Source: Myxococcales bacterium (lineage in GTDB: Bacteria; Myxococcota; UBA727; GCA-2721815). From it: a DNA stretch of 34,317 nucleotides. The DNA lies in assembly GCA_002721815.1 (NCBI GenBank), contig PBLQ01000026.1, positions 1-34,317 on the forward strand, read 5' to 3'. Every line of letters starts with the position of its first letter. The stretch's first letter is position 1. The translations under genes were made by a program, and so were the position numbers. The notes below the pieces were generated by a model. The model was not told the origin of the DNA. It ran no database searches and saw nothing but the letters and a program-made list of their open reading frames with translations. Below are positions 13,034 through 34,317 of the stretch, piece by piece.

Positions 13034-13065
13034 TCCTGTTTACCCATTCGCCTGATGCGGAATTA

Positions 13066-13093
13066 AAAAGAGGCCTTAAGGGCCTCTTTTTTT
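13066..13093. terminator. Rho-independent terminator between convergent genes
   Basis: A perfect stem AGAGGCC (13069-13075) / GGCCTCT (13081-13087) with a 5-nt loop is followed by a T-run. The A-run before the stem makes it usable on both strands. It serves the transporter and the convergent sulfotransferase gene. Confidence 0.9.
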
Positions 13094-13123
13094 GGGTAAC
13101 CAGTCTGAATCTAACCATTCATT

Positions 13124-13939: not shown

Positions 13940-14050
13940 CTTTGGGTTCCGTTCTTTCTGAGAGAGCTCCGATTATCAGGAGGGATTGCTCTTTATTGCC
14001 ATCGAAAGACAGAATCCGAAACTTTAGACCTAACAGAAGAAGTCGGGTAC

Positions 14051-14076
14051 GAAGAGCCTAAGGCTCTGTTTTTTAT
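14051..14076 (+). terminator. Terminator-like hairpin in the cysD leader
   Basis: AGAGCC (14053-14058), loop TAA, GGCTCT (14062-14067), then GTTTTTT. It lies about 80 nt before cysD, in a region where the preceding plus-strand gene already has its own terminator. It may therefore attenuate cysD transcription, or end a short leader transcript. No known sulfur or SAM riboswitch was recognised upstream. Confidence 0.5.
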
Positions 14077-14156
14077 AGATAATACTGGTTTTCCCTTCCT
14101 GTAATAAAAAACCAAGATCGGGCTCAAGCTAACCCGGCTGATGGCCGATTAGTGGC

Positions 14157-18560: not shown

Positions 18561-21194
18561 CTAATAACCTGTGCCCGCCTCATAGGGAATACGTTCACAA
18601 GAGGGGTTGATGATGAAATCATCGCCTTCCAACCGGCCCGAATGGCCTGCAGGCATCTCATAAATTTTACAGTTCGCACCATCAAAAAGCCCACCATAAG
18701 GACAAGGATCAGCATCCGTGTTTTTGGAAAGATAAAAGTTATCGTCATAGATAAATCCGTTAGCGCCATCAGGTACTTTCATCAAAAAGCACTCGCCATA
18801 TTTATACCGCCCCCCTACCGGACAAGGGTTGGCACAATTTGAAAGATGGTCAAAGGGTTCACAGAGTGGCTCAAGATAAAAACTTTCCAAACTTAATCGT
18901 GCGCCCTCATTGGTTTTATTGACAAAGCCATCACGATTTTCCGGAATCGCGGCAAACAAACACCCATCGTCATCCTCTGGATGCGTTTCAAAACAATCGT
19001 TATCACCGCCCCAAAAATCATCCCAACCGGTGATGCGATAATAAAAACTGCCATTTTCAATGCGTGCGACGTGACCGTCAGGCGCGCTCCCGACATAGCA
19101 ACCATAACCGTCATATACCCCATGACCCTCACACGGATGACGACAGCCATGGGTCAAGGTACTTTCTTCGTTGCCCGCGCCCACGTAAAATTTATCCGAC
19201 CATATAAAGGTCGGTGCCCCTGATGCCATTTGGACATGTAAGCATTCCCCATCGATATGGGTGCCACCTTGCGGACAATAAGGCGCACTGTTGGCTGCAA
19301 TAGAATATAAACTGCTGTCCTTGATGTAAACAGCCACACCGCTGGGCAATGAGGCCACAGAACAATTGGCACCGTCGTAAGAACCACCCCACGGACAAGC
19401 GATGGACATCTCTGGGTTGTGTTTTTCGTACACACGAACGTAGTCTATTAGCATTTCTCGCGGTTGAAAATCATCGAGATCGGGTCGGTAATTGTAAATC
19501 ACATTGCCGGCCCAAGTACCGATATCTGCAGTCATCGTATAGTTCAATAAAATATAGTTCGCTAAAGTCGGTACCTCCATAGCAAAATCATCGCCCATCT
19601 CGCCCATATCACCGTTACGAATGGTCCCGACGTACCATTTATCTACAAAAAATCTAAGTTCATTCTCATCCCACTCTACGGCGTACACATGAAAATCGTC
19701 GTCAAAGGTGTCATCCCTGCCAGACTGAGGGTAAAACCTTGACCTGGCTTTGTGCTCCATACCAGCTGCCGTTTTGATGCCCTGATCCTCGATGCCGTCG
19801 TGATAGGTGTGGTATACTTTTGCGCGCCGATGGGCCCAAGCCTCCATGATGTCTATTTCACCGCCATCCGGCCAACCGCCCCCTTGAGGCAGCATCCAAA
19901 TGGCTGGCCAAGCGCCCGGGCCTCCTGGTAAGCGTGCTCTCACTTCAAAACGACCATGTTTTTGTAAAAATCCTTCAACAGAAACATTACCGCCCCACGA
20001 ATAATGACGGCTGTGAACACCGCCTGATAACAGAGGACAATCCACCGTATAGTTCCCGTAACCGTCCGTGCGCTCATCGTCATACCATTGACCACAATCG
20101 TCATGAGAGGATCCTTGCGTGCGCGCGGATAACACAAGATTACCATTTTCGACTTTCACCTCTGAAGCAGAAAAAGCATTTTTCATCGCAGAAGCCTCTT
20201 CAAAGCCATTCATGTAGTTGTAAAAGTCGTAGACGGACCAAACACATTTGTTCAAATCAGCCATTTGCGCCGCCACATCTTCAGGGCAATCAATAGGCCC
20301 CCAAGCATTGTGAAACAAGCACTGAGGCGTGCGGGAATAACATGACAAATCATCACCCGGTTGAGGTCCATTAAATTCATCTTGGAAAGTTAATGACCAA
20401 AGCGGGGTGGCAGCAAAAGAAGCTGTGCTTTGAACGTCGTTCGCACCATTATCATCGCCATTATCGATGTCTTCATCATCGGTATGGGTGTTGTCATCAT
20501 CGCCATCAGGTGTTTCGTCAGAATCGTTGGGGTGGTAGGTATCGTCGACGACCCCTGAATCAATTTCTTTAACACAATCGCCGTTTTCATTTTCAACAAA
20601 ATTCGTTTGGCATTCACAAATACGGTTTTGAAAACTCTCACAGTTTTGCACTTCATAACTAAACGGGCCACAAGGTGGGGTACACGGAAGGCAATCTGTC
20701 CAATAGTTGTTATCGTGATCGTAAAATTCAGGGGCACAACGGTCGGAGGGCGGCATGCCCGCATCATGGGCCGTTTCGCTCCATTGGCCAGCGTCGAAGG
20801 AAATGTTCGCCTCTGGTTCCTCCCCTGAATCCAGCCTTTCAGTCTCAGGGTCATGCGCACCTGCATCCAACACTTCATTGGGCCCAACCGCACCACCATC
20901 CCAAGAAGACCAAGACCCAGGGACACTGGCATCTGCAGACGTGTGGGTTACGGGTGTTTCTTCGTTAATGCCTGCGTCTAAAACGGTGACAACCACCGAC
21001 CCACCATCCGAAGGGTCCCCATGCGCTGAGCCGGCATCAGCCGATTCATGGTCACGCACAAGATCATCGGGCTCGGTCGGCGCATCTTGGGGAGCGGGCT
21101 CCTCAGTGGGGGGCCGCTCAGGAAAACACCCCAAACCGGTGCTCATCAAAACCCCCAGCAAAAAAGGCCTCCAAACCAGCGACAAAATCCTCAT
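18561..21194 (-). CDS. Secreted GH16 family beta-glucanase with Cys-rich C-terminal module array
   Basis: The 877-aa product starts with a lipoprotein-like signal (LLGVLMSTGLGC), then an Asp/Glu/Pro/Ser-rich linker, a Cys-rich segment (about 165-215, CxxCTPPCGP) and an acidic linker. The GH16 domain (about 265-590) begins WSLTFQDEFNG and carries the catalytic motif EIDIME with nucleophile Glu446 and acid/base Glu451. It ends LIDYVRVYEK. GH16 enzymes of this type usually cleave beta-1,3-glucans such as laminarin. The C-terminal 285 residues are six related modules of about 45 residues with a CP-GG-YDGANC core. The frame is open to 21326, but the second of two tandem ATGs (21194), 5 nt after GGAG, gives the clean signal peptide. 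Confidence 0.9.
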   Translation of the reverse strand: MRILSLVWRPFLLGVLMSTGLGCFPERPPTEEPAPQDAPTEPDDLVRDHESADAGSAHGDPSDGGSVVVTVLDAGINEETPVTHTSADASVPGSWSSWDGGAVGPNEVLDAGAHDPETERLDSGEEPEANISFDAGQWSETAHDAGMPPSDRCAPEFYDHDNNYWTDCLPCTPPCGPFSYEVQNCESFQNRICECQTNFVENENGDCVKEIDSGVVDDTYHPNDSDETPDGDDDNTHTDDEDIDNGDDNGANDVQSTASFAATPLWSLTFQDEFNGPQPGDDLSCYSRTPQCLFHNAWGPIDCPEDVAAQMADLNKCVWSVYDFYNYMNGFEEASAMKNAFSASEVKVENGNLVLSARTQGSSHDDCGQWYDDERTDGYGNYTVDCPLLSGGVHSRHYSWGGNVSVEGFLQKHGRFEVRARLPGGPGAWPAIWMLPQGGGWPDGGEIDIMEAWAHRRAKVYHTYHDGIEDQGIKTAAGMEHKARSRFYPQSGRDDTFDDDFHVYAVEWDENELRFFVDKWYVGTIRNGDMGEMGDDFAMEVPTLANYILLNYTMTADIGTWAGNVIYNYRPDLDDFQPREMLIDYVRVYEKHNPEMSIACPWGGSYDGANCSVASLPSGVAVYIKDSSLYSIAANSAPYCPQGGTHIDGECLHVQMASGAPTFIWSDKFYVGAGNEESTLTHGCRHPCEGHGVYDGYGCYVGSAPDGHVARIENGSFYYRITGWDDFWGGDNDCFETHPEDDDGCLFAAIPENRDGFVNKTNEGARLSLESFYLEPLCEPFDHLSNCANPCPVGGRYKYGECFLMKVPDGANGFIYDDNFYLSKNTDADPCPYGGLFDGANCKIYEMPAGHSGRLEGDDFIINPSCERIPYEAGTGY

Positions 21195-21364
21195 CATTGC
21201 TCCATTTTCCAAACCTGATGACCCATGAAACCTACAGGGCCTGAACCGAACCCCACTTGGGGTGGCCGTTGTTTTTAAGCGTATCAAAAATACATCGCAC
21301 AGCTCAATGGTACCGCATTTCTTCATCAGGATACCGTTTTTATTATAGAATTCGAATTATTGAG

Positions 21365-21425
21365 GTAGCGCCAGAGGGCAAGGGAAAATTCGGCGGGCTC
21401 AAGCCACTCCCCCTTGGCGAACGGC
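21365..21425 (+). other. Possible structured leader in the divergent 21195-21475 intergenic region
   Basis: CGCCA (21369-21373) can pair with TGGCG (21415-21419). Inside it GGG (21376-21378) can pair with CCC (21410-21412), and a GGCT/AGCC step closes the inner part. It lies about 55 nt before the start of the Cys-rich lipoprotein gene. No known riboswitch class was recognised and no U-tract follows. The rest of the intergenic region is AT-rich near 21340-21365, with no firm promoter call. Confidence 0.25.
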
Positions 21426-21475
21426 TTAAAATCCCTTAAACAATGTCGACTTTTATCCCCCTTCAAGGAGCCACC

Positions 21476-23422
21476 ATGCAACAATTGAAAATGATCTCTA
21501 TGCTCGCTTTTTGCCTGTCCATCTCGGGCGCTTGCGTTCCGACCACCACTGGCACCACCGAACCCGAAGAAACGTTGGAAGAAGAAGAGCAAGAAGAGCA
21601 AGACGAGGAAGAAGAAGAGCCCACTTTAGGCGAAATTGGCGATTTCTGTAACTCTAACGCCGACTGCGAAATGGGCGACTGCCTCAACATCTTCAGTCAA
21701 TACGACATCAAAGGGTATTGCACCCAAACCTGCACCGCAGACACGGACTGCGAAGGCTACTCCGATGAAAACGCCACTTGGGCTTGCAAAAACCTCGGCA
21801 GCTCGGGCAGCCACTGCATGATGGAATGCAACAATGAAAACTGCCCCAATGATTACGTTTGTTTGCGCAATGTGAACATTGGCCAACCCACCGATCTGTG
21901 CTTGAGCTTTGGCGAAGCCTGTGACGATGGGGTGTGTCCAGAGGGCGAATACTGTACCATTGGCTCCACCGGTTATGAATTCTTCTCCCTTTGCTCTGAC
22001 GACCCTGTAGGTTTTATCAAGGGTGGCGAAACATGTGATGCCAATATTGAATACGGGATGCCCTGTACAGTGGCCAGTGACTGCCCCAGCGGCTACAACT
22101 GTCCTTCAGATGTGGAAGTGGCCGACCGCACCTGCCAACCCGATCAAGAAAACCGTTGCGCCGCTTACATTTGCTGGAACGATGGCACTTGCGCCAGTCC
22201 CTGTGAGGCTGACGGTGACTGCGCCTCGGGCGAAACTTGCCAAGGCTTCAATTTCAACGTGAACCGTTCTCCCGACACCACCGATGATGACGGCGTGGCG
22301 TTGGTGAAATTATGTCGCCCCGCCAAAGCCACCGGCGACAGCTGCACCAGCAATGCCGATTGCGACGGCACCGAGGTCTGTCAAATGGCCAGAGACACCA
22401 GTGGCAATTTGGTCATGGGCTGCCAAGAACCCGCATCCGGCGCACCAACTTTTGGGGAAGCTTGTGGAGACGACCCACGTACTCTAGATACCATCGAGCC
22501 CAGCATCGCCTGTGATACGGATGTGTGCATGGACGCCACCTGCTCGAAGTACTGTACAGCAGACACCGACTGCGGCGATGGCTACCAATGTGTGAGTAGC
22601 CTGACTTCGGCCATGGAAGGTGGTGCCGCGAAAACTTGTTTGAAGGGCGCATCCTGCAATGCCAGCGGTGATTGTGGCGCTGATGAAATCTGCCTGCCCA
22701 CCCGAACGGGCAATGGCTATGTCAAACGTTGTATCACCGGTTTTGGTGAAGTGGCCGCCGGCGAAGCCTGTGATGCCACTGCGGGCCTTAAAGACAATGT
22801 CTCCTGTATGGATGACAGTGCTTGTGACGGAACTTGGGTGTGCGATCGTGCGAACCACCAATGCCGCCCTCCCTTGTCAGAAACCTGTGAATTCAGTGGC
22901 GGCGCCTGCTTCGGCACCGGCTATTGCTCCACTTCCTGTGCTACCGACAGTGATTGTCCTGGCAGCGACTACCACTGCCAAGGCGTTCCAAGCACCTACA
23001 ATAACAACAACACGGGCGATGTGAGCGACGATATGGTGGGCCTGATGAACTATTGTGTGTATCTCCCAGGTAGCCGTACGGCATGTACCAAAGAGGCCGA
23101 TTGCACCACCGAGGGTGAGAGCTGCCTCATCAGTCGCGATGCCTCAGGCGTTGCCCAAACGGTTTGCTCTTCCAGCCATGCCAGTGCCACGGGCGCATCG
23201 GGCGATGCATGTGGCGCCACCGCAAATGGCCCCGTACAGTGTCAAACCGGCTTCTGCGACTACCTCAATGGCGACACCTTAGGGCCAGACAACACCGATG
23301 ATCCCATGCAAGGTAAATGCACGCATTTGTGTGCAACAGATGACGATTGCGATACGGGTCGCAGCTGCGAAGATTATGAATATGGGCCGACCAACAGCGA
23401 CAGTGTGAAGATCTGCCGCTAA
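21476..23422 (+). CDS. Cys-rich repeat lipoprotein (Dickkopf-like C-x4-D-C units)
   Basis: Start ATG 21476 follows AAGGAG at 6 nt. The frame is open from 21443, but only this start gives the signal peptide MQQLKMISMLAFCLSISGAC. The 648-aa protein then has a very acidic linker (about residues 26-50, nearly all Glu/Asp) and an array of about ten short disulfide-rich units such as CNSNADCEMGDC, CEADGDCASGETC and CATDDDCDTGRSC. Such C-x4-D-C-x(3-6)-C units are common in myxobacterial surface proteins and are often matched by Dickkopf-like Cys-rich models. It is likely outer-surface exposed. No catalytic domain is visible. It ends at a bidirectional terminator shared with the convergent lamin-tail protein gene. 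Confidence 0.85.
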   Translation: MQQLKMISMLAFCLSISGACVPTTTGTTEPEETLEEEEQEEQDEEEEEPTLGEIGDFCNSNADCEMGDCLNIFSQYDIKGYCTQTCTADTDCEGYSDENATWACKNLGSSGSHCMMECNNENCPNDYVCLRNVNIGQPTDLCLSFGEACDDGVCPEGEYCTIGSTGYEFFSLCSDDPVGFIKGGETCDANIEYGMPCTVASDCPSGYNCPSDVEVADRTCQPDQENRCAAYICWNDGTCASPCEADGDCASGETCQGFNFNVNRSPDTTDDDGVALVKLCRPAKATGDSCTSNADCDGTEVCQMARDTSGNLVMGCQEPASGAPTFGEACGDDPRTLDTIEPSIACDTDVCMDATCSKYCTADTDCGDGYQCVSSLTSAMEGGAAKTCLKGASCNASGDCGADEICLPTRTGNGYVKRCITGFGEVAAGEACDATAGLKDNVSCMDDSACDGTWVCDRANHQCRPPLSETCEFSGGACFGTGYCSTSCATDSDCPGSDYHCQGVPSTYNNNNTGDVSDDMVGLMNYCVYLPGSRTACTKEADCTTEGESCLISRDASGVAQTVCSSSHASATGASGDACGATANGPVQCQTGFCDYLNGDTLGPDNTDDPMQGKCTHLCATDDDCDTGRSCEDYEYGPTNSDSVKICR

Positions 23423-23441
23423 GTCCATCTTCAACACAAAC

Positions 23442-23482
23442 AAAAAATGCGTGTCCGGTTCACCCCGACACGCATTTTTTTT
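23442..23482. terminator. Strong bidirectional terminator
   Basis: A 14-bp perfect stem runs from 23442-23455 (A6 then TGCGTGTC) to 23467-23480 (GACACGCA then T6), with an 11-nt loop. The A-run on one side and T-run on the other let it work for both convergent genes. Confidence 0.92.
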
Positions 23483-23502
23483 GCCCGGTTTTACCCCATG
23501 GT

Positions 23503-25326
23503 TTAAGGCGAACTGTTCGCCACCCCTGGGGAGCCATGCATGGCGTCGCTGGCGTGCCAGTTTTCAGGCACGGCGTTGTCAGAAGAAGGATGACCCAACT
23601 CCAAGGACTTCCCACCGCCATTGGCCGCAGTGGGCCATCCCGCTGCAGCGCGAACGTCGTAAGTTACGGTATCCATGATTGCGCCCGTTCCATCGGTGAG
23701 GGTAAGCGTCTCTTCATCATTTTTGAGGTTACTGCCGTTCCATTCGATCACAGTGGCCGGTAAATTCTCATAGCTCTCTGGGCGGTTCACCAAAACCAAG
23801 AACGTGCCATTTTCGAAAGTGAAATCATCAAAGGTATGGACAATGCCGGAGGTGAAAGTCCAATTTTCAAGATTGATGGTCTGGCCAGCATTGTACAATT
23901 CTAAGAATTCATAATCGAGGTCGTCGCCTTGGGAAGTGGGCGGGTTGTAATAGATCTCGTTAATCACCACTTTGGTCTCAGTAATGGGCACACAAATTCC
24001 GCTCTCACAAAAGGCTGAAGTGCCACAGGCTTCGGTAGCAGAAGTGTATATACAATCCCCGTTGCTACAGGTTCCCGTTGCCCCGTAAGTGACGGCGGAA
24101 TTGCCGTCACAAAAATCCGCGGGTGGGGTTTCGCAGGTTTGCCCCTCACACGGGTCCACCGCCATACACATGCCCGTCACACAGGTCTCGGTGGTGGCGC
24201 AAGGCGTCTCGGTGGGTGAATAGGTACAATTGCCATCACTGCACACACCCACCTCGGGATAGGTGATGGCGGTGTTTTCATCACAGGTGTCCGCTGGCGG
24301 TGTGTTGCAATCTACCTCGGCACAAGGGTCCGTGTTCGCCACACAAACACCATTGCTGCAAGTCTCGCCCGTGCCACAGGGGACGGTCGTCGTCACTTCG
24401 TAGGCACATAGACCTTCGTCACAGGTCCCAGTTTCGGCATAAGAAACCACCGAATTGCCATCACAAATGTCAGCGGGTGGCGTATTGCACTCAACACCAT
24501 CGCACGGATCTGCATCGGGCACACAGACGCCTTCCACACACGTGGTCATTTCAACACATTCTGTTTCTGTGGACGGATAAGAGCACACGCCGCTGTTGCA
24601 AACCCCTACGTCGGGATAAGTAATCGCGGTGTTACCAAAACAAGCATTGGCGGGTGGCTCCACACAGTTGACCCCCGCGCATGGGTCACTGTTCTCTAAG
24701 CATACCCCGTTGCTGCAAGAGGTGTTTTCCTCACATGCCGTTTCGGTGGATTCATAAACGCACTCCCCCTCCACGCACGCTCCTGTGGCAGTGTAAGTCA
24801 CAGTGTTGTTGCCATTGCAGGTATCGGAAGGCGGCGCATCGCACACAACCCCAAGGCAAGGGTCAGAGCCATCATCCACCACACACACACCTTCGCTGCA
24901 GATCTCCCCATCTGCGCAAAGGGTTTCCGTGAAATCGTAGGAACAAAAACCGTTTTCGTTACAGGTGCCGGTGGACTCATACACCACCGCCGTGTTGCCA
25001 TTGCAGGTGTTCGCTGGTGGACTTTCACATACCACGTCCACACACAAGGCTTCTTCGTTGGAAAGGCACGCCCCTCCAACACAGGTTCGATCGCTCGCGG
25101 CACAGTTCAACCGGACTTCATTGAACAGACATTGGCCTTGGGCATCACACAGACTGGTGGGTTCGTAACTGATGGCCACCGCCCCTGCACACTTGGATTC
25201 TGGCACCTGCTCACAGGTGCTCGCATCGCACTGCCCTTGCCCCTCAGTCCCAGGGTCACAGGCCGATATGGCGCCCAAACACACGACTGCTAAAATTAAC
25301 GACTTAAATTTAAATAGATACGACAT
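23503..25326 (-). CDS. Seven-repeat Cys-rich lipoprotein with C-terminal lamin-tail domain
   Basis: ATG 25326 is preceded by AAGGTGG and starts a signal peptide with a good lipobox (LGAISAC). The frame is open to 25392. Residues about 25-445 are seven tandem units of about 58 residues with the pattern DPC-GV-C--PPAD-C-GN--V-Y--TG-C--G-C-Y--TET-C----CSNGVC. The C-terminus from about residue 450 is a lamin-tail domain (VVINEIYYNPP, DYEFLELYN, NLENWTF, LVLVNRPE, GKSLELGHPSSDN). Bacterial lamin-tail domains occur in secreted and surface proteins, often next to nucleases or adhesins, but no nuclease domain is present here. It is likely a surface stalk displaying the lamin-tail domain. Total length is 607 aa. 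Confidence 0.9.
   Translation of the reverse strand: MSYLFKFKSLILAVVCLGAISACDPGTEGQGQCDASTCEQVPESKCAGAVAISYEPTSLCDAQGQCLFNEVRLNCAASDRTCVGGACLSNEEALCVDVVCESPPANTCNGNTAVVYESTGTCNENGFCSYDFTETLCADGEICSEGVCVVDDGSDPCLGVVCDAPPSDTCNGNNTVTYTATGACVEGECVYESTETACEENTSCSNGVCLENSDPCAGVNCVEPPANACFGNTAITYPDVGVCNSGVCSYPSTETECVEMTTCVEGVCVPDADPCDGVECNTPPADICDGNSVVSYAETGTCDEGLCAYEVTTTVPCGTGETCSNGVCVANTDPCAEVDCNTPPADTCDENTAITYPEVGVCSDGNCTYSPTETPCATTETCVTGMCMAVDPCEGQTCETPPADFCDGNSAVTYGATGTCSNGDCIYTSATEACGTSAFCESGICVPITETKVVINEIYYNPPTSQGDDLDYEFLELYNAGQTINLENWTFTSGIVHTFDDFTFENGTFLVLVNRPESYENLPATVIEWNGSNLKNDEETLTLTDGTGAIMDTVTYDVRAAAGWPTAANGGGKSLELGHPSSDNAVPENWHASDAMHGSPGVANSSP
23985..25260 (-). repeat. Seven tandem about 58-codon Cys-rich repeats
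   Basis: In-frame repeats inside the lamin-tail protein gene. Six share the DPC or LC start, the PP[AS][DN]xC core and the final C-x(2,3)-G-x-C. The first unit is more diverged and lacks the DPC start. The DNA copies are visibly different from one another, so the array is old or under selection at the protein level. Confidence 0.85.
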
Positions 25327-25458
25327 TAAACCACCTTTTTGACGCTCTGAGCCCCGTCTGCTGACCCATGCTTCTTGGGAATGAGACCCCACATGAGTCC
25401 TTTAAAGGGTTTGCACCCTCCTGAAAAGCCCCCGAAGTACACTAAAAGCGCTTTCCAC

Positions 25459-27399
25459 TCACCCACCGCCCTGGGATGGCCCACACGTCAAACGTTCTTC
25501 AACCACACCCTCCTGCACCAGCTGACGGATTCGTTTCGGTTCATCCATCTGGCCCCAAAAATAGCCATAATCACCTTCCGCCCCATCAAAAACGTCCAAC
25601 TGGTCGAGGTAACCCCACAATAAAACACGATGTATCTGGGGATGGGTGAGCCGCAGCATGACATCACTGGCATGGACGAGCTCTTTGAATAAGATGTTGC
25701 CCGATTTCTCTACGGCGATCACCGCAATACGGTCGCGAGGCCAAGTCAACACGCCATGCCCGGGTGAAAAATAAGTTGGCCGCTCGTTATAGGTGAATCG
25801 GTTTTTTTTATGATGAAAAGAAACAGCTGCATCACAAGGCAGCCGATCCTGCCGCCGCGTTTCAAAAACACGTGACAACGCTTTCACCAAATCGGCCTTG
25901 GTGTGATGCGCACGCTCCTTTTCTGACAAAGGAGAAAAAGCCAAAGGATAGTAGGGCGCGTTCCCAACGCCGAGCACATCGAACAATATTTTGGGCACAT
26001 CATGGTGATAAATGGCCTGCGGGATGGTCCTCCCCTTTGTCATGTTGGGCTCGTGAATCAACAATAAATTCCGACGTCCTTCTACATTTTTGAGTCTTGT
26101 CATCGCTAAATGGTCCGAAAGAAAGACCACCAACGTATTGCCCAGCATTTGCTCGGCCTGAAGACGCCCAAACAAGCTTCTAAGATTTTGGTCTAAACAA
26201 TGAACAGCGTTTAAAATAGCATTATCACCCTCGCCATAGGGCGCACAGGATTTATCCGAATGGCCTGGGTCATGGGTGTCAAAATTAATACTTGCCACAT
26301 GATAAGGCGCACTGCTTTGGTGACGTTTTTGTATTTCGGTGAAGACACGATCATATAGCGGCTTATCTCTCAAAACAGCGTAAGGCTTTGCAGACCCCGT
26401 CAGTTCTTCTGAACCCATCACTTCTTTATAGCCGTGTGACTGAAAAAAATTTCGGGTCCCAGCAAAATCCAAGGAGGTGCCTTGGGCAAACATTTGCCGA
26501 TATCCCATCTGTGCCAATACATCCCCAAAGCATGTGAGATGTTGCGTGCCCCGGTAGAAGAGCGTTTTATTCATTTCCTGTTCGCTGCTAAAAATCTCGA
26601 ACGGATAGCCACATTGTGACGCAAAAAAACCGCTGATGGTAAAGGCACCTCTGTTTTGTCTGAAATCCGAAAAGAACAGCGAGATCTCGCGAAGCTCGGT
26701 CAGAAATGGCATCAAACCCGGGAAACGTTCTTCATTAAGGTATTGGGCCTCGACACTCTCCAAATAAAACATCAAAACATTGCGCTGTTTTTTCATGGTC
26801 ACATTTGAAATATCTTGAAACAATTGGCTTGTTGAAATTTCGTTTTTCTTAAGCGTCTTTCGGGCCTGCTCTAAAGATAACAACGCACGGCCTTCTTCCG
26901 GTGCCGCAAACATTTTCTCATAAAAATGAGGCATCGGTGAAAGCCACAAGGCCCCAACTAAAACAGCTGTAAAGCCCCACATGCGCTTTGGGGCGATACG
27001 CCACAATGCGGGCCCTTTGATGAATTGAATCTCTATGAACACATGCAGCACCAAAGTCGCAATGGTGACCCAGGCATGTTCGGGGTAAAATCCCATGAAA
27101 GTTACCGTGTTGAAATTGGCATGAACAAAGAAACCATCACCCAACACCACGCCTTCCACTCGGTAGCTCCACAAAGCCATGAGTAAAAAGAAAAGCAGAA
27201 GGGTTCTTAAGAGCGACAATAACCAGTGACGCCCCAAACCCATTGAGGCCATCTGAACGAAAATGAGCGGCCATAACACAACCGCGGTGAATCCATCGAA
27301 GATGCCTAAAAGCCCCACAAGCGCTGCGAGCACCATGAGACTTTTTATGATGGACACACGCGCTTGCATGACGTGCCTGAGCAAGGAAGATTGGGTCAT
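25459..27399 (-). CDS. Membrane phosphoglycerol transferase / LTA synthase-like sulfatase-fold protein
   Basis: About four to five N-terminal membrane segments (residues 15-160) are followed by an extracytoplasmic alkaline-phosphatase-fold domain of the LtaS/OpgB type. The likely nucleophile is Thr254 in GAFTISGFFASQCGYP, which resembles the ASQCG segment of OpgB-like enzymes. SDH at Asp429-His430 fits the distal metal site. OpgB/MdoB moves phosphoglycerol from phosphatidylglycerol to periplasmic glucans. Members in other contexts decorate other glycans, so the acceptor is uncertain. The frame is open to a TTG at 27411, but ATG 27399 is preferred. It starts 19 nt after the TauD-type gene, so it is the third gene of an operon. 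Confidence 0.82.
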   Translation of the reverse strand: MTQSSLLRHVMQARVSIIKSLMVLAALVGLLGIFDGFTAVVLWPLIFVQMASMGLGRHWLLSLLRTLLLFFLLMALWSYRVEGVVLGDGFFVHANFNTVTFMGFYPEHAWVTIATLVLHVFIEIQFIKGPALWRIAPKRMWGFTAVLVGALWLSPMPHFYEKMFAAPEEGRALLSLEQARKTLKKNEISTSQLFQDISNVTMKKQRNVLMFYLESVEAQYLNEERFPGLMPFLTELREISLFFSDFRQNRGAFTISGFFASQCGYPFEIFSSEQEMNKTLFYRGTQHLTCFGDVLAQMGYRQMFAQGTSLDFAGTRNFFQSHGYKEVMGSEELTGSAKPYAVLRDKPLYDRVFTEIQKRHQSSAPYHVASINFDTHDPGHSDKSCAPYGEGDNAILNAVHCLDQNLRSLFGRLQAEQMLGNTLVVFLSDHLAMTRLKNVEGRRNLLLIHEPNMTKGRTIPQAIYHHDVPKILFDVLGVGNAPYYPLAFSPLSEKERAHHTKADLVKALSRVFETRRQDRLPCDAAVSFHHKKNRFTYNERPTYFSPGHGVLTWPRDRIAVIAVEKSGNILFKELVHASDVMLRLTHPQIHRVLLWGYLDQLDVFDGAEGDYGYFWGQMDEPKRIRQLVQEGVVEERLTCGPSQGGG

Positions 27400-27418
27400 G
27401 GGATATCCCAAAAAACGG

Positions 27419-28267
27419 TCATGGGGTCTCCATCACATCCAGATCTTCGTACACCACTGATCGGTGCATTTCTCGACGAGTACCCCCATAATCGTTCACC
27501 GCACAATGTTGCGTGGTTTTATTGTCCCACATGACAACATCACCAGCTCGCCATTGGTGTCGATAGACCGTTTCTGGTTTGATGATGTGCATTGACAATT
27601 CATCGATCAGCGCATCGCTCTCCGCATCTGAAAAACCGATAATCTGCCGGGTAAACGCTGGGTTCACGTACAGATATTTCTTTTTTGAATGAGGGTGACA
27701 GCCCACCACGGGGTGTGAAACTGCGGTTCCAACCCCAGGGCTTTTGTGAGCAGCACCGGGGGAATACTTCGCGGGATCGGTGATGCCGTGCGCCCGATGA
27801 ATGCCCATCAAATCAGCAATTTTGCTTTGGGTGTCCTCAGACAAACGCTCATAAGCCAAAACACAATCAGCAAAAAGTGTATCCCCGCCGGCTTTCGGGA
27901 GGTCTATGGCTTGTAAAATCGTTGCCATGGGTGGGTGAGGTTGAAAACTCCCGTCTGCATGCCAAGACCCTCCAAAATTATATTCATCTTCTTCACGTTT
28001 AATCACCTGTTGCAAAAAGTTGGTAGATGCCACGCATTGACGACCTGGCGGTTTTCGCAAAGGACCAAACTGCATCGAAAATTGTTCATGGGCCAAAGGG
28101 GTCAAGGTTTGGTCGCGAAACACCAACATGCGGTGTTCGAAAAGCAGTTCTTTAATATAAGTGACCGCGACCTCCTCATTCACCGATTTGAGGTCTGCAC
28201 CCAGGACACAAGTCCCCAATGCGCCATCACCCTTGATGATTTCCCAATCATCCCAACGCATCATCAT
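27419..28267 (-). CDS. TauD/TfdA family Fe(II)/2-oxoglutarate dioxygenase
   Basis: The 282-aa protein has the facial triad of the family: His103 and Asp105 in GGSWHADGSF, and distal His254 in TTQHCAVNDYGG. Arg265 or Arg269 in RREMHRSVVYE is placed to bind the 2-oxoglutarate C5-carboxylate. Length and motifs match full-size TauD/TfdA enzymes, which hydroxylate substrates such as taurine or aryloxyacetates. The substrate here is unknown. Its start overlaps the end of the FAD oxidase gene by 20 nt. Three in-frame ATGs (28267, 28264, 28261) leave the exact start open. It is clearly different from the much smaller 2-oxoglutarate oxygenase at 31780. Confidence 0.92.
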   Translation of the reverse strand: MMMRWDDWEIIKGDGALGTCVLGADLKSVNEEVAVTYIKELLFEHRMLVFRDQTLTPLAHEQFSMQFGPLRKPPGRQCVASTNFLQQVIKREEDEYNFGGSWHADGSFQPHPPMATILQAIDLPKAGGDTLFADCVLAYERLSEDTQSKIADLMGIHRAHGITDPAKYSPGAAHKSPGVGTAVSHPVVGCHPHSKKKYLYVNPAFTRQIIGFSDAESDALIDELSMHIIKPETVYRHQWRAGDVVMWDNKTTQHCAVNDYGGTRREMHRSVVYEDLDVMETP

Positions 28268-29591
28268 CTCGTTTTTTGTTCAGTTGTCCCTCAGCAATAA
28301 TGCCCTTGGGGTCCCATTGTTTCTTTAGCTCCTCCAACGACTGGCTGGCCCGAGGATAAAAAGCATTGAGATGAGATTCATTAAAGTCGTGCCAGCATCC
28401 GAGATACGGTTTCCCACCTAAGGACACACAATGCAGCAAAGAAGCATCCAAAACTTTTTTCACAGCACGCCAAGCCGCCTCATTTTTCAATGGGACCGCC
28501 CAGTTAATTCCGAGTCCAAACAGCATGGACGGGCTTGCCTTTTGTCGGGGCGAGAAAGGGAAAAAGGGAGCGTTGTCTTGCTTGCGAATGGCGTAAAAGG
28601 GAATGCGCGTCACACAGGCCGACGCCTCTTTATCCCCTTTCAGCAAAGACAAGAGTAAGTGGGCATGCTCACAGAATTCATCGTAGGGGAAACAATAAGC
28701 CGAATATAAGACCCCTTTTTTTTGTCGAACCTCATTGGTGTTAAATGCAATCTCATAGTGATGTTTCAAACGGTGGTTTTTTTCCACGTATGTATGTGCA
28801 GGCACCCCTTGTTGTAACCAAGGAGCGCAGACCGGATCTGAACTTTCGGCAACATCTTCACCGTACATGGCAACATGTGGCTCTTCGAGGCCAATGGAAC
28901 CAACGAACTGTAAAGTTGCATCTCCGCGCCAAGATGAAATCCAGGACAGGCTTTTGAGAAACGCATTGAGGTCATCAAAAGTGTAGTGGGCAAAATGGGT
29001 ATAAGGTTTGTAAGGAACCAGTCCCATGGTCGCTTCTTCGATCACGCCCAGCTGGCCTTGACCACAGAGCACGTGACGAAAAAGTGTTTCATGACTGTCC
29101 GGTGAAACCAGCAATCGTTCACCTTTGGGGGTCATTAAAGTGAAACTCCGAACATGCTCCACCGTTTGCCCCTGGGTAATGGAATGAAACCCCAACCCAC
29201 CTGCGGACAAAACCCCGCCCAAACTCAAATTCAGGTAAACAGGAACCACCGGCAACGAAAGCCCATGTTCATTTAATGCCAATTCAAGTCTGCACAGGTT
29301 AGAGGAAGCGGCTGCCGTTGCCTGCGTCCCATCAAATCCTGACAGTCGCGCATCGCGCTGATAGCGCTCAATGAGCGTTCCGCCTTTGGACAGTGACTGC
29401 CCGGCACAGCCACGGCCAGCCCCACGTAAAGTGACCGAAAGTTGATCGTTCACGGCCTCTTCAATCAGTTGCTTTAGATCCGTATCTCTCCGAAATTGGA
29501 CCACCTTTTTGGGTTCACGGTGAACCATACCGCCATAATCGTGGCTGTAGACATCTTTTTCCCGGTCACTGAGTTGTTCAAACAAGGGCAT
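28248..29591 (-). CDS. FAD-binding PCMH-type oxidase/dehydrogenase
   Basis: This 447-aa flavoprotein has an N-terminal FAD_binding_4-type domain: LRGAGRGCAGQSLSKGG at residues 55-71 and a VYLNLSLGGVLSAGGLGF segment. GQGQLGVIEEATMGLVP follows. The C-terminus (QWDPKGIIAEGQ) is a typical end for this superfamily. The GGVLSAGG...GQ-GQLGVI pattern is closest to the cytokinin-dehydrogenase/sugar-oxidase branch. The position that is often a covalent-FAD His (RGxGHS) is Arg60 here, so FAD may be non-covalent. The substrate is unknown. It is the first gene of the three-gene minus-strand operon and is divergent from the RiPP precursor gene. Confidence 0.87.
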   Translation of the reverse strand: MPLFEQLSDREKDVYSHDYGGMVHREPKKVVQFRRDTDLKQLIEEAVNDQLSVTLRGAGRGCAGQSLSKGGTLIERYQRDARLSGFDGTQATAAASSNLCRLELALNEHGLSLPVVPVYLNLSLGGVLSAGGLGFHSITQGQTVEHVRSFTLMTPKGERLLVSPDSHETLFRHVLCGQGQLGVIEEATMGLVPYKPYTHFAHYTFDDLNAFLKSLSWISSWRGDATLQFVGSIGLEEPHVAMYGEDVAESSDPVCAPWLQQGVPAHTYVEKNHRLKHHYEIAFNTNEVRQKKGVLYSAYCFPYDEFCEHAHLLLSLLKGDKEASACVTRIPFYAIRKQDNAPFFPFSPRQKASPSMLFGLGINWAVPLKNEAAWRAVKKVLDASLLHCVSLGGKPYLGCWHDFNESHLNAFYPRASQSLEELKKQWDPKGIIAEGQLNKKRDDDALG

Positions 29592-29724
29592 GAAAATAGC
29601 CTACTGCTGGTTGAGATTTTTGAAAAATTCTTTGTCGTATGATTGCCCTCATAAAAAGGTGAATAAATCCAGACATTTGGGCTCTCTTTGTTTTGAGGAT
29701 CTCTGCATTATTTTTGAAACTTTT

Positions 29725-29753
29725 TTGTTTTTAAGTCCTCTAAAGAGTTAAGA
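29725..29753 (+). promoter_or_regulatory. Candidate promoter of the RiPP precursor gene
   Basis: TTGTTT (29725-29730), 17 nt, TTAAGA (29748-29753), inside the AT-rich divergent region 29592-29820. The spacer holds a short palindrome CTCT-AA-AGAG (29738-29747) flanked by direct TTAAG copies (29730-29734 and 29748-29752), which could bind a regulator. The call rests only on pattern. Confidence 0.3.
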
Positions 29754-29820
29754 ATGGTTTGTAGCTAAATTGTGCGGGGATACAGACGCCAATACCGCAT
29801 GAATAAAAAAGGAGATCCTC

Positions 29821-30171
29821 ATGTCAGAACGCAAAATTACCAAATTATACGAAAGCTTACGCGAGCTAGGCCAAGTTTCCCCCGATCAAGTCCCTCAAGA
29901 GGCAATTGAGACCATCGCGTCATCATTTGAGGTCTCCGGCGAGATTCAGTCCAACGCAGTGGCCTTGTTGGCCCGAATTGCCAACGAAACCACAGAGGCA
30001 GAGTTCGTCGACGCTCTCGAATCAGGCGATCTTCCCGCCATTGCCCTGTCCGAAGCCGAAATGGAAACCTTCAACGGAGGCCGAAAACGCGCTAGGCGCG
30101 ATAAAGGTGGTGCCAAAGGTGAAGAAACAAAAAAGAAAAAGAAAATCGACTGGTGCGGGCGCTGCTGGTAA
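29821..30171 (+). CDS. Putative RiPP precursor peptide with double-glycine leader and WCGRCW C-terminus
   Basis: AAGGAG 6 nt before ATG 29821 is a near-ideal ribosome-binding site. The 116-aa product has a helical, acidic leader (1-87) ending LSEAEMETFNGG. This matches the L-S-x-x-E-[LM]-E-x-x-x-G-G cleavage motif of leaders cut by C39/PCAT peptidases. The predicted 29-residue core (88-116) is extremely basic (about a dozen Arg/Lys, including KKKKK at 104-108). It ends IDWCGRCW, so its only two cysteines are Cys112 and Cys115. The leader shows no clear nitrile-hydratase or Nif11 domain by eye. It is followed by a hairpin terminator and then by an MNIO enzyme gene, a class that modifies Cys, Asp or Asn in precursor peptides. 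The function is inferred from motif and context. Confidence 0.85.
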   Translation: MSERKITKLYESLRELGQVSPDQVPQEAIETIASSFEVSGEIQSNAVALLARIANETTEAEFVDALESGDLPAIALSEAEMETFNGGRKRARRDKGGAKGEETKKKKKIDWCGRCW

Positions 30172-30195
30172 CCCGCGTTTTCTCCCATTCGAGTC

Positions 30196-30233
30196 AAAAA
30201 AGCCGTTATTCTTTTTGAATACGGCTTTTTTTA
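30196..30233 (+). terminator. Hairpin terminator/attenuator between precursor and maturation genes
   Basis: AAAAAGCCG-TTATTC pairs with GAATA-CGGCTTTTT across a short T-loop (30196-30230), followed by more Ts. Placed 25 nt after the precursor stop and about 37 nt before the MNIO gene, it would let the peptide be made in excess, with read-through supplying the enzymes. Confidence 0.88.
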
Positions 30234-30269
30234 TTGGTGCCCCTTATTCACAAAGGCTAGTTTCATTTC

Positions 30270-31094
30270 ATGACTTTAATCAGCATGACTTATTTGCCGC
30301 CTCTTCATGGCCTTATCGAAGATTTGAAGGCGGACGATCTGTTACAAGCCATTGAGTTGGTCCCCGATGAATTCTTTAGTGAAACATCTCCGCAGGGTTT
30401 AAGCGAGGCTTTGGGCGATACCTTGAGCCACTTCATGCTACCTTACTCATTCCATTTTGTGGGCAACTCACTGTGCAGTGCAGACTTCCTTACCAACCAC
30501 GACCCTGGCTTAAATGAATGGGATGCATACAAACCGATGTTGGTCTCAGACCACCTCACCTGCTCTCGCATTGGCGATATCGACGTCACCGGTAATCTGC
30601 CCACGCTTTATACCGAAGAAACCTTGGACATCACCGCTGAAAACATTCGGCATCACCAACAACGCCTGCCTCGCAACACTTCTTTCCTCCTAGAGCACAT
30701 TCCCATCCCTTTCGAATTGAAGCAAAGTACTTTGTCATGGGACGAATTTTATTTGGGATTGATCAAGCAAACCGATGCTGGTGTTCTTTTAGACTTGCAC
30801 AACCTGTATTGCGAAGAACAAAACAGTAACTTCAATGCAATTCAATTCATGGACCAGTTACCTCAAGACCAGGTTTTAGAGTTACACGTGGCCGGGGGGT
30901 ATCTCCGAAAGGAATGGAATTACTATGTTGACTGTCATTGCCAGCATGTCCCTGAACGGGTTTTTGAGCTTGTCGAGGCTGCCATGAGTCGGTTTTCTCC
31001 CAAACTGGTCAACTTGGAGCGAGAACACAATTTCGTCGAATTTGATCGCATACGAAAAGACATTGAAAGGTTGAATCGGCTGTGTCGCAACTAA
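30270..31094 (+). CDS. DUF692 / MNIO family peptide-modifying oxidative enzyme
   Basis: MNIO enzymes are TIM-barrel, multinuclear iron oxidases that modify RiPP precursors (MbnB in methanobactin, TglH in 3-thiaglutamate, bufferin maturases). The 274-aa sequence follows the family in order: FHFVGNSL (His62), VSDHLTCS (Asp94, His95), LLEHIPIPF (Glu142), LLDLHNLY (Asp175, His177, Asn178), LELHVAGG (His206), VDCHCQHVPERVFEL (Asp221, His223) and NLERE (Glu250). The N-terminus is short and lacks the usual G-x-G-L-R start, having IELVPDEFF where many members have an E-x-x-x-E-N/D-F/Y pattern. The gene overlaps the next by 13 nt. Start ATG 30270 has no strong ribosome-binding site; ATG 30285 is an alternative. 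Confidence 0.92.
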   Translation: MTLISMTYLPPLHGLIEDLKADDLLQAIELVPDEFFSETSPQGLSEALGDTLSHFMLPYSFHFVGNSLCSADFLTNHDPGLNEWDAYKPMLVSDHLTCSRIGDIDVTGNLPTLYTEETLDITAENIRHHQQRLPRNTSFLLEHIPIPFELKQSTLSWDEFYLGLIKQTDAGVLLDLHNLYCEEQNSNFNAIQFMDQLPQDQVLELHVAGGYLRKEWNYYVDCHCQHVPERVFELVEAAMSRFSPKLVNLEREHNFVEFDRIRKDIERLNRLCRN

Positions 31095-31753
31095 GGGATA
31101 AAATTGCAAAACGTCAAAAAGAAATCCTGCTTGGCTTGGTGCGTGGCGACGCAAAAAATAATGAATGGCTCGATCAAAACTTTAAATGGGCATACGAAGG
31201 CTTTATTCTAAACCGTATCGTCCCGGACAACATCGAACGCATCAAAGCAATACTGGCAGACTGTTTTCCCAATCATGCAGCCCACGCGCCCTTAGACCAA
31301 AACAGTATCGCCCTGTTCTGTAGCGCTATTAAAACCACCGGTTCGGAAGTGGAGTGCCTCGATCATTATTTTTCCGCCGTCCAAAATGCCATGCAAACGC
31401 AACCTGCAGACAGCGCTGCACGTGATGCATTATTTTTGGATTGGGCCCATGCGAGGGTGAAAGCCCAAGAGGCCATTACCCCAAAAGCTCTTTCTGATTT
31501 TATTCAAAATTTACCCCCAGACGCGATGAACGACGAGGCCTACATCGTGCACCCAGGCTTGGTGATCATTCAATGTCTCACCAATTTGATTCATTTCCTG
31601 GATGCACCTTTTTTCACCGTTGATATCGCCGTTGAGAACCCTGGCAACAAACCCTATGCCCTCATTTATAAGACCTCGGCACATACAGACAACAAGTGCA
31701 TTCGCTTCTCAAGCATTGCAGGACTCAAATTTCAAAATACTTTTGCCGATTAA
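31082..31753 (+). CDS. Unrecognised protein in the position of an MNIO partner
   Basis: The 223-aa product starts at GTG 31082, inside the end of the MNIO gene, which implies translational coupling. No family was recognised. The N-terminal half is helical (RDKIAKRQKEILLGLVRGD, then a LxxNFKWAYEGFILNRI segment). The C-terminal half is more beta-like and ends YALIYKTSAHTDNKCIRFSS. MNIO enzymes commonly act with a small partner encoded next door (MbnC, TglI, HvfC/BufC types) that binds the leader. Position, size and the helical start fit that role, but no direct motif match supports it. It could equally be a novel tailoring protein. Confidence 0.8.
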   Translation: MSQLRDKIAKRQKEILLGLVRGDAKNNEWLDQNFKWAYEGFILNRIVPDNIERIKAILADCFPNHAAHAPLDQNSIALFCSAIKTTGSEVECLDHYFSAVQNAMQTQPADSAARDALFLDWAHARVKAQEAITPKALSDFIQNLPPDAMNDEAYIVHPGLVIIQCLTNLIHFLDAPFFTVDIAVENPGNKPYALIYKTSAHTDNKCIRFSSIAGLKFQNTFAD

Positions 31754-31779
31754 TCTTAACCCCTTTCCACGGAGCCTGT

Positions 31780-32397
31780 GTGAGCAGCGATCATATCGAA
31801 GACATCAAACATGACCTCAAGGACAATGGCTGGTTTTTTGGTAAGTCATTATACACCCTCGAAGGATTTGAAGCACTGGGTCAGCGGTTGGGTGAAATCA
31901 TTGCGCGAACCGATATCAGTATTGATGAAACCCGCTCCGTGTACCAAGTACGCACCGCTGGAGGGCTCACCTTGCACATGGACGACCCACCGGCACGCTA
32001 TATTGCTTGGCTGGGGATGGTCACGCCCGAACAAGAAGAACCCACCAAATTTCTAGATACCCGTCCCATCTTGGAAATGCTTTCACCCGAAGAGCTGACG
32101 CGTATCAAATCCATCCAAGTAAAAGACGACAATGGTTTGATTCACCCCATGCTGGCGGATGATGGTGTTTTTCATTACGTGCCTTGGATGATCCAAATGC
32201 AAACGGTCACCGATAACGACACCTTTGAAGCGCTGGCGCACCTTCAAAGTCTCATTCGCAAAGCCACCCGGACCTGTCACACCATTAACATTCAAAAAGG
32301 CGAAATCCTTATCGTGGATAATACCCGAGTCATTCACGGTCGGGATCGCATTGCCGCGGATTCCCAACGACACCTCAAACGACTGTGGATCAAATGA
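31780..32397 (+). CDS. Compact TauD-like Fe(II)/2-oxoglutarate oxygenase
   Basis: The frame is open from 31696, but GTG 31780 lies 5 nt after GGAG and clears the previous gene, so it is the likely start. The 205-aa protein has the metal-binding HxD pair His66-Asp68 in GGLTLHMDDPP and distal His186 in DNTRVIHGRDRI. Arg197 and Arg201 in RHLKRLWI are placed to bind 2-oxoglutarate. The VIHGR...RHLKRLW ending is typical of the TauD/GBBH-like branch. It is shorter than usual (about 280-330 aa) and seems to keep only the core. Between MNIO-cluster genes it probably hydroxylates or desaturates the precursor peptide. Its stop overlaps the next start (ATGA). Confidence 0.87.
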   Translation: MSSDHIEDIKHDLKDNGWFFGKSLYTLEGFEALGQRLGEIIARTDISIDETRSVYQVRTAGGLTLHMDDPPARYIAWLGMVTPEQEEPTKFLDTRPILEMLSPEELTRIKSIQVKDDNGLIHPMLADDGVFHYVPWMIQMQTVTDNDTFEALAHLQSLIRKATRTCHTINIQKGEILIVDNTRVIHGRDRIAADSQRHLKRLWIK

Positions 32398-33692
32398 GCA
32401 ACCATCACGCACCAGTCCAGCATGAGCTCAAAACCGCTGACACACTGATGCAACTCTTACAGAAAGATCCATCCGGTGCCTATGACGCTATCTGGTCATG
32501 GATTTTTTGCGCGCCACCAGTGGCATCTTCACTCAGCGAAAAGCAACTGCGAGCACTGTCTGAATTACAACGTTCATGGTCTGCAGCTGCGATGCGCGAC
32601 ACAGGCCAAAGCAGCGATGGTTTCTTAGTGGAGCACTTGTACGGACCCACCCCAAAAACCTCACCGACCACTGTACCGCCCCCTTTTTCGATGACCACAT
32701 TTCCTGAAGTGTGCGAAGTCCAAATGTCACTTTTGAAAGCCAATATTTCTGCCATCCAACATCAATCGGAGTTTCAGCAGCGTCTTCAACAAACACCGGA
32801 CCTCTTTAGGTTGTCCTCTTGGGGGCTTGAAATACGACTTCACGAAAGCGAAGAAACCGATTGGGCATTCAATCTCGGCCCCTTGTTTAGAGATCACATG
32901 CCTCTTTGTACGGCATTCACAGCAGAAGACAGGCTGGAGCAACAAAAATGGCAGGCCAAATACGCACCACTCGACAGCCCAGACAGCATCATGCTGCCCT
33001 GCTGGATTGAAATCGATGCAAAGGATATCTCTTACCAAGGCCCTCAAGAAAATCTCTTTTTTAAAATTCATCCCAAGGCCACACCTGATGATATCAAAAA
33101 TTCGCTCAACACGCTTTATCCACAACATCACTGGGAAAAAGCATGGCCACCCATCGAAACGTTTGCGAATCACCTACCAGTCGCCGCTGACTTTTTCCAA
33201 CTGGGGGTGATGCAGCGACGCGATCACATCCTCAAAGCAGTGGCTTTTAATTTCGCCATAGAACATATGCTGGGCTTCCTAGATGCACTCCAGTGGCAAG
33301 GCAACAAATCACTATTGGTGGATGTTATTGACACCCTGAAAAAATATCCCGAGTTGAAAATTGCGCTCAGTTTGGATTTTGACTTTTCCGTTCGAGATTC
33401 CGTAGGGCTCGAAATTCATTATTTCCCTAGCGAAAGTCGTAACCTTTTTCACGAACCACGCCAATTTCAACAGTTGGTGCAAGATCAATTTTCATCCCTG
33501 ATGCGGTTCTTGGCAGAGCCGCTTTTCAAAGATGTCATCACCGCCGAAAAAAGATTGGCGCTGGAACAGTACCCTAAAATTTTGGTGGGCCGGCCCTTTT
33601 ATACGTACGCTTGTACCCTTAACCACGTGAAATTGAGTGTTGGGGAGCAATTAAAGGCAAAGGCTTACCTGTATCAAGAACTTCGCCTTTAG
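32394..33692 (+). CDS. Cluster-associated protein of unknown function, homologous to the convergent gene at the right edge
   Basis: Start ATG 32394 overlaps the preceding stop as ATGA. The 432-aa protein has no recognised catalytic motif. The middle region contains LPCWIEIDAKDIS and LFFKIHP. The C-terminal half has FFQLGVMQRRDHILKA, then LSLDFDFSVRDSVGLEIHYF, and it ends LNHVKLSV-x6-KAYLYQ. The same landmarks recur in the partial protein on the opposite strand (IGVSCAAGVEAFKAY, NLVLDVQ...LGIEL, LNHLKVS...KAYWVY), so the two are homologues. From memory, proteins with a similar GVM...LD...GLE...HxKL...KAYL layout occur near peptide-biosynthesis genes, but I cannot name a family. It may be a structural or substrate-handling factor. 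Confidence 0.8.
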   Translation: MSNHHAPVQHELKTADTLMQLLQKDPSGAYDAIWSWIFCAPPVASSLSEKQLRALSELQRSWSAAAMRDTGQSSDGFLVEHLYGPTPKTSPTTVPPPFSMTTFPEVCEVQMSLLKANISAIQHQSEFQQRLQQTPDLFRLSSWGLEIRLHESEETDWAFNLGPLFRDHMPLCTAFTAEDRLEQQKWQAKYAPLDSPDSIMLPCWIEIDAKDISYQGPQENLFFKIHPKATPDDIKNSLNTLYPQHHWEKAWPPIETFANHLPVAADFFQLGVMQRRDHILKAVAFNFAIEHMLGFLDALQWQGNKSLLVDVIDTLKKYPELKIALSLDFDFSVRDSVGLEIHYFPSESRNLFHEPRQFQQLVQDQFSSLMRFLAEPLFKDVITAEKRLALEQYPKILVGRPFYTYACTLNHVKLSVGEQLKAKAYLYQELRL

Positions 33693-33702
33693 TTACAAAA
33701 CG

Positions 33703-34317
33703 CTATAAATAAACCCAATATGCTTTCCACTGGATATCGCCGCCGGGCCGAAACGACACCTTAAGGTGGTTGAGCGCGATGGCCAAGTCGGAAGGGATAT
33801 TCCGCCGCTGTGGTTCAATGTATTTCTGAAGCTCAATTATGGCGTCTTCATGGAGGGATTCCTTCACGATGGTACTGTTGAAAATCGCCTCTATTTCTTT
33901 GGATGACCTTCTTTTTTTCTGGTGACGTAATTTCAACTCAATCCCCAGTCTTTGCAGCTGGTGCCCTTGGACATCTAAAACCAAATTCGTTTGGTGGGCA
34001 GACAAACTTTCCGCTAATTCAGAGACCGCATTAAGGTGCTCACCCATGAATTGCTCACGAACACCCGTTGGTAATTCATGAAACAGCGTTGACAAGTTCC
34101 CCATGGGATAAGCCTTAAAGGCTTCCACACCCGCCGCGCATGAAACACCAATATGTTCTAAATGATGGGTCCCGCAAAGTGCTGTTAAACAATCAAAGTC
34201 TTCGTTCGAAAAAATAAAATTATGAGGAGAGAGTTCAGAATATGCGCGAGCCAAAAATTCGAAACCGTCTTGAACTTTTGGTGATTGGCGAAATGTAGCG
34301 ACCAAGCCAGTTACAGC
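33703..34317 (-). CDS. Partial homologue of the 32394-33692 protein, N-terminus beyond window
   Basis: The frame is open from the window edge to a stop at 33703, giving the last 204 or so codons. The TTG at 34305 is probably internal and not the true start. The sequence aligns in order with the C-terminal half of the convergent neighbour: HIGVSCAAGVEAFKAY, LVLDVQGHQLQRLGIEL, ELQKYIEPQ, ALNHLKVSF and KAYWVYL. Identity looks low, so this is an old duplication. Its 3' end lies 10 nt from the neighbour's 3' end. An orientation opposite to the biosynthetic operon suggests a second transcription unit to the right, perhaps another part of the cluster. Confidence 0.8.
   Translation of the reverse strand, partial: AVTGLVATFRQSPKVQDGFEFLARAYSELSPHNFIFSNEDFDCLTALCGTHHLEHIGVSCAAGVEAFKAYPMGNLSTLFHELPTGVREQFMGEHLNAVSELAESLSAHQTNLVLDVQGHQLQRLGIELKLRHQKKRRSSKEIEAIFNSTIVKESLHEDAIIELQKYIEPQRRNIPSDLAIALNHLKVSFRPGGDIQWKAYWVYL

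Follow-up and report, generated by a model that had tools for sequence, protein, structure and literature searches.

The window, a stretch of DNA of 34,317 nucleotides, contains a gene for a credible precursor of an MNIO-modified RiPP, which would be a new variant of such precursors. The sequence suggests that a member of the myxobacterial phylum encodes a small peptide that is freed after a double-glycine leader. The finding pairs an MNIO clade, distinct from the rest of the sampled Myxococcota MNIOs, with a small two-Cys candidate substrate. Since the two Cys residues are the only ones and both lie at the end of the peptide, the chemistry could be read from one co-expression and mass-spectrometry experiment. 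The cluster also exposes an undescribed domain, that of a 432-residue protein, which has links with RiPP oxygenases in both Myxococcota and Cyanobacteriota.

The precursor gene

The precursor ORF (29821-30171, plus strand) is translated into 116 residues, and a ribosome-binding site, AGGAGA (29810..29815, plus strand), is read in the sequence 5 nt 5' of the ATG. Translation and homologues define the leader as residues 1-87 (29821..30081, plus strand), ending in LSEAEMETFNGG with the GG at residues 86-87. In the 29-residue core after the GG, RKRARRDKGGAKGEETKKKKKIDWCGRCW, translation and composition distinguish a polybasic stretch, RKRARRDKGGAKGEETKKKKK (residues 88-108; 30082..30144, plus strand), and the C-terminal WCGRCW (residues 111-116; 30151..30168, plus strand), a candidate modification site. 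The core contains eight Lys, five Arg, two Asp, two Glu and two Cys residues, and its net charge is therefore +9 (13 basic against four acidic residues). Cys112 and Cys115, in IDWCGRCW, are the only Cys residues of the precursor, the leader having none. The translation thus bears out the original prediction of a core after GG with about a dozen Lys/Arg, a KKKKK run and the sole two Cys residues near its end.

With background frequencies taken from 18 proteins of the window (K+R 8.4%, C 3.0%, W 1.5%), the binomial probability of at least 13 Lys/Arg in 29 residues is 1.9e-7 and the probability of the fixed pattern WCxxCW is about 2e-7; both tests were picked after the sequence had been seen, and the Cys frequency of 3.0% is inflated by Cys-rich proteins among the 18. 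A second GG at residues 96-97 makes an alternative core of 19 residues possible. The first GG is aligned in the precursor, two paralogues on contig C37 and one ORF on contig C68 of the same genome, all four having the conserved GG-ending leader of double-glycine peptides. Judged by eye, the N-terminus of the precursor, MSERKITKLYESLREL, has no hydrophobic stretch and no Sec signal. No Pfam, NCBIfam or PHROGs model matched the precursor above the cut-off.

A terminator-like hairpin between the precursor and the MNIO gene (30192..30236, plus strand) was found by folding against shuffles (-16.5 kcal/mol, z -6.3, equalled by none of 200 shuffles), and it ends in a U tract. Because this hairpin follows the stop codon of the precursor, the output of the precursor may exceed that of the downstream genes. 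A scan for sigma-70-like promoters gave fewer sites than in shuffles, and no Rfam family was found in 27000-34317.

The leader family

The precursor as the query matched three further places in its own genome, two on contig C37 and one on contig C68. A leader profile of six rows added a second ORF on C68, which is itself a row of the profile, and a weak ORF on C37 (3558-3887 of locus L007, minus strand). The latter was rejected as kin, since it reached a profile E value of 1.8e-4 but only z 1.3-1.5 against the precursor leader. The leader is homologous to four ORFs elsewhere in its own genome and to one in Hyalangium versicolor. In shuffle tests of the leader, both C37 paralogues reached z 12, the two C68 ORFs z 14 and z 7, and the Hyalangium ORF z 10 (0 of 5000 shuffles).

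Among 195 genomes of the phylum, the single-sequence leader search matched the own genome, G069 and G101 (Hyalangium), and the profile search matched the own genome, G101 and G181. Since the Hyalangium row sits inside the profile, only the single-sequence search is independent for Hyalangium. Two matches were set aside: that in G181 lies inside an ORF that, judged by eye, encodes peptide chain release factor 2, and that in G069 (E 0.0027 in the single-sequence search) did not reappear in the profile search. The leader kin matched no Pfam or NCBIfam model above the cut-off, and a plasmid tblastn search with the precursor gave no match. The homology of the leader within its own genome, and in Hyalangium 5 kb from a related MNIO, indicates that the precursor gene is real. 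No MNIO adjoins the leader-family ORFs on C37 and C68, so that the leader is not tied to MNIOs.

Immediately after GG, the C37 precursors carry ARKKMKPKEGAR and RRRRKKAREGVS, with six and seven basic residues among the first 12, as compared with seven in the window precursor. They end in SGSCHGE-type modules, not in WCGRCW. From this comparison of sequences the basic stretch looks like a carrier or linker that is shared with the paralogues, which is the simpler reading. In the Hyalangium ortholog the basic stretch is absent. The C37 locus itself is a separate RiPP cluster. There, two leader-family precursors with repeated SGSCHGE-type modules stand in tandem (4298-4690, 4956-5348 and onward), next to a LanM-type (DUF4135) fragment, a 2OG oxygenase, an acyltransferase-like protein and a 455-residue protein of no named family.

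Exactly two Peptidase_C39 domains are found in the genome, and C68 carries both, along with two members of the leader family. Of the two domains, the second matches weakly (E 3.7e-6), and the protein that holds the better-scoring one is similar to the NHLP bacteriocin exporter, under the cut-off. The part of the cluster in the window, which stops at the contig end, contains no C39 exporter. C68 is possibly an export hub for the GG precursors of the genome, and the window precursor may be processed in trans by a C68 exporter. The C68 locus (4347-7724, 7764-8327, 10387-10944 and 11673-14756) comprises two long leader-family ORFs, two C39 ABC exporters and sigma-factor-like ORFs.

The MNIO enzyme

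The MNIO gene (30270..31094, plus strand) encodes 274 residues and was assigned from Pfam (PF05114, E 5.7e-42), the iron-site residues and a tree. PMC8888699 names the iron-site residues of VcMbnB. All nine iron-site residues of MbnB are kept in the window MNIO (H62, H95, E142, D175, N178, H206, D221, H223 and E250) and also in the Hyalangium MNIO. The general base, Asp240, is replaced by Glu252 in the window MNIO. The precursor therefore has, as in MNIO-modified RiPPs, an adjacent MNIO with an intact iron site.

In 123 of the 195 phylum genomes a match to the window MNIO was found at E 1e-8. The sole close relative beyond the own genome is in G101, Hyalangium versicolor H56D21 (Myxococcota), with E 9.3e-68 (the next is 2.7e-29) and 45% identity over the whole length. 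A tree of 33 MNIO rows joins the window and Hyalangium enzymes at 100/100 on a stem of 1.83 changes per column; the placement of the pair beyond this node is uncertain, and a long-branch warning was issued by the program. A contig scan with the single MNIO sequence gave no match, and one with the two-sequence alignment gave Hyalangium alone. Plasmid tblastn with the MNIO yielded 265 records, all below 60% identity. The own genome holds a second MNIO, on contig C47.

All NCBIfam subfamily scores of the MNIO are far under their cut-offs. The best is BufB (125 bits against a cut-off of 310); the MbnB model of methanobactin synthesis reaches 38.7 of 325 bits, and the ChrH model 41 of 600 bits, only over model positions 114-257 of 363. 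The rank of BufB bears on another interpretation, namely that the product is a metallophore for handling copper, with synthesis and use as in the case of bufferins or methanobactin. Two MNIO-type groups at the Cys residues could chelate Cu(I). The score of BufB, however, falls far short of its cut-off, the precursor carries no Sec signal, and neither a DUF2063 match nor a copper gene was found among the window proteins scanned. We consider this interpretation unlikely.

Neighbouring genes

The next gene (31082..31753, plus strand) overlaps the MNIO stop and encodes a 223-residue protein of no known family, which gave no family, PDB, profile or phylum match above the cut-off and showed no similarity to DUF2063-like partners. 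Its AlphaFold model (pLDDT 41) was unusable. According to PMC12452194, PME-type 2 partners occupy this gene position, and from its position the protein is a candidate MNIO partner. It is followed by a TauD-family 2-oxoglutarate oxygenase of 205 residues (31780..32397, plus strand; E 1.2e-13), with weak NCBIfam matches to basic amino-acid hydroxylases, and, through an ATGA overlap, by the 432-residue protein (32394..33692, plus strand). The TauD oxygenase and the 432-residue protein are likely to be partners of the MNIO.

A second protein with the C-terminal domain of the 432-residue type (33703..34317, minus strand) is cut by the contig end. AlphaFold of the 432-residue protein with this window relative was unusable (pLDDT 34). 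Elsewhere in Myxococcota the C-terminal half of the family is found again, in two cases following a cyclase-like region. On plasmid pPg_03 of Pseudanabaena galeata (7434-9227 of locus L059) the domain is fused to a 2OG oxygenase, and the fusion gene lies in a LanM/Nif11/MBL cluster. This fusion beside LanM/Nif11 precursors links the domain, in few cases, to RiPP oxygenases.

On the other side, an FAD_binding_4 oxidoreductase (28248..29591, minus strand; E 3.9e-16) is divergent from the precursor, and a TauD-family dioxygenase (27419..28267, minus strand; E 3.8e-55) overlaps the FAD gene. Both are possible cluster members, and in one case a relative of the FAD gene adjoins a 432-type protein (L054). 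The cluster is incomplete because the contig stops at 34317. Farther away, the window contains sulfate-activation genes (13124-17034), with a PAPS_reduct domain and a GTPase-APS kinase fusion, beside an ORF that is sulfotransferase-like by eye and has no Pfam match. It also contains large Cys-rich secreted-looking proteins (18561-25392), one with a GH16 and one with a lamin-tail domain.

Conservation of the Cys pair

The leader homologue of Hyalangium is located 5 kb from the MNIO, on the other strand (L040, NZ_JAHXBF010000022.1). Its core is DSCEGGCAATQT, with the C-terminus GAVDSCEGGCAATQT. Here the Cys pair takes the form CEGGC (Cx3C) and stops five residues short of the end, with an Asp just before the first Cys (DSCEGGC), and the core has no aromatic flanks or Trp and no basic stretch. 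What the two cores have in common is therefore just a Cys pair close to the C-terminus, together with Gly between the Cys residues and Asp before them. Hyalangium shares neither the spacing of two residues nor the flanking Trp residues, and it lacks the terminal position of the pair and the basic stretch. The original prediction had asked whether WCxxCW and the basic stretch are the only conserved core parts. In the alignment with one homologue the Cys pair near the C-terminus held, while the spacing and flanks of WCxxCW and the basic stretch did not. Non-conservation of the C-terminal CxxC among homologues had been named as evidence against the proposal, and CEGGC in Hyalangium (n = 1) amounts to such evidence in part.

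The Hyalangium locus (L040, 4178-14712) is an oxidative RiPP cluster with YcaO (E 3.9e-74), TfuA (E 4.7e-47), TauD (E 1.7e-37), MNIO and the leader homologue; a further 2OG oxygenase and an LpxL-like acyltransferase are also present. YcaO/TfuA, rather than the MNIO, could act on the Hyalangium core. BLAST found no relative of the 432-residue protein in this locus. A 258-residue Hyalangium protein is 20% identical to the 223-residue window protein when aligned, with no BLAST match, and has no profile match to DUF2063-like partners.

We also scanned 33 loci for ORFs with two Cys residues near the end, which were judged by eye. Two loci (L070 and L071, in genomes G061 and G062) have a precursor immediately 5' of the MNIO, with a DUF2063-like partner under the Pfam cut-off after it. 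The L070 precursor, also present in G064, has a GG leader and EECPTC, and the L071 precursor has GCLSC. Two further loci (L028 and L039) have bufferin-like precursors with signal peptides. The rest of the 33 loci showed no clear precursor, partly since most flanks are short. L042 (431-1041) holds a pair of small ORFs that contain SSDKCSCGGTM; they are possible precursors and lie about 4 kb from an MNIO fusion frame. The view of the aromatic-flanked terminal CxxC as an MNIO substrate thus gains from the GG-leader precursor adjoining an MNIO with an intact iron site and from CxxC in two other MNIO-adjacent precursors, but such a CxxC is absent in the sole ortholog found, that of Hyalangium.

It is worth considering that the MNIO acts on Asp110 (by beta-hydroxylation or similar) or on another non-Cys residue, and that the Cys residues stay thiols or a disulfide. 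MNIOs act also on Asp, Asn, Phe and homocitrulline (PMC13174530), with hydroxylation of Asp and homocitrulline and bis-hydroxylation of Phe (PMC13174530, PMC13060819), which makes Asp110 another candidate site. Asp110 is two residues before the first Cys, and the Hyalangium core likewise has Asp just before its first Cys. Cys is, on the other hand, a common MNIO target, and the recurrence of MNIO-adjacent CxxC precursors in the phylum argues against this interpretation, to which we give only about one chance in five.

WCGxC is the thioredoxin-type active-site pattern. That the tail, WCGRC, is an unmodified redox or metal-binding CxxC of this pattern, and that the MNIO serves another peptide missing beyond the contig end at 34317, is very unlikely, since the MNIO gene comes straight after that of the precursor and the sole MNIO ortholog locus carries the same leader family.

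Proposed pathway

The interpretation to which we lean, at somewhat better than even chances, is that of a GG-leader RiPP of which the adjacent MNIO oxidises the C-terminal Cys pair, with the TauD oxygenase and the 432-residue protein as partners and C39 export after GG. The 87-residue leader would be read by the MNIO, perhaps via the 223-residue neighbour protein. The MNIO would then oxidise one or both Cys residues of IDWCGRCW, most likely to a sulfur heterocycle or a thioamide-type group, and the TauD oxygenase and the 432-residue protein would carry out further oxidation. A C39-peptidase ABC exporter, probably either of those on C68, would then cleave the peptide behind GG and export it. 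The basic stretch would serve as a carrier or linker and not as the modified part. The sequence itself shows the precursor, the leader family, the intact iron site of the MNIO, the order of the genes and the exporters of the genome; the pairing of enzyme and substrate, the modified residue, the chemistry, the route of export and the activity are inferred. An antimicrobial or metal-binding activity of the peptide is a guess.

The modules of the leader family are WCGRCW, CEGGC and repeated GSCHGE, on basic or plain arms. It is conceivable, though rather doubtful, that these represent a new class of MNIO peptides, in which a lineage-restricted leader delivers interchangeable C-terminal modules to different oxidative enzymes, and in which the window MNIO clade, TauD and the undescribed domain convert a Cys pair with aromatic flanks to a novel oxidised group of two sites.

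Comparison with known systems

In a full-text collection that lacks most subscription journals, the string WCGRCW was not found, which is weak evidence of novelty. In the same collection, MNIO together with CxxC was found in PMC12452194 only. There the putative MNIO precursors of Adjamnio-7, associated with MNIO sequence cluster 7, have no signal peptide, contain CxxC and adjoin an MNIO. The window precursor shares these three properties.

The chryseobasins (ChrA/ChrH, and ArlAH from Archangium) likewise combine an MNIO with CxxC at or near the C-terminus (PMC12636315). Their MNIOs act on CPxCGxG, in contrast to the CGRCW end of the window precursor, and ChrH has an extra C-terminal helical domain that the 274-residue window MNIO lacks. 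The precursor also differs from bufferins in having no Sec signal. The Std cluster (PMC13174530) resembles the window in its MNIO and RiPP precursor, and the Hyalangium locus in YcaO-TfuA, but has an SNKEWQE core and a Lys-derived substrate. The Hyalangium locus differs in the presence of YcaO and TfuA and has no basic stretch, no Trp and, by BLAST, no relative of the 432-residue protein. It nevertheless resembles the window cluster in the closest MNIO, a homologous leader, a TauD oxygenase and two Cys residues near the C-terminus.
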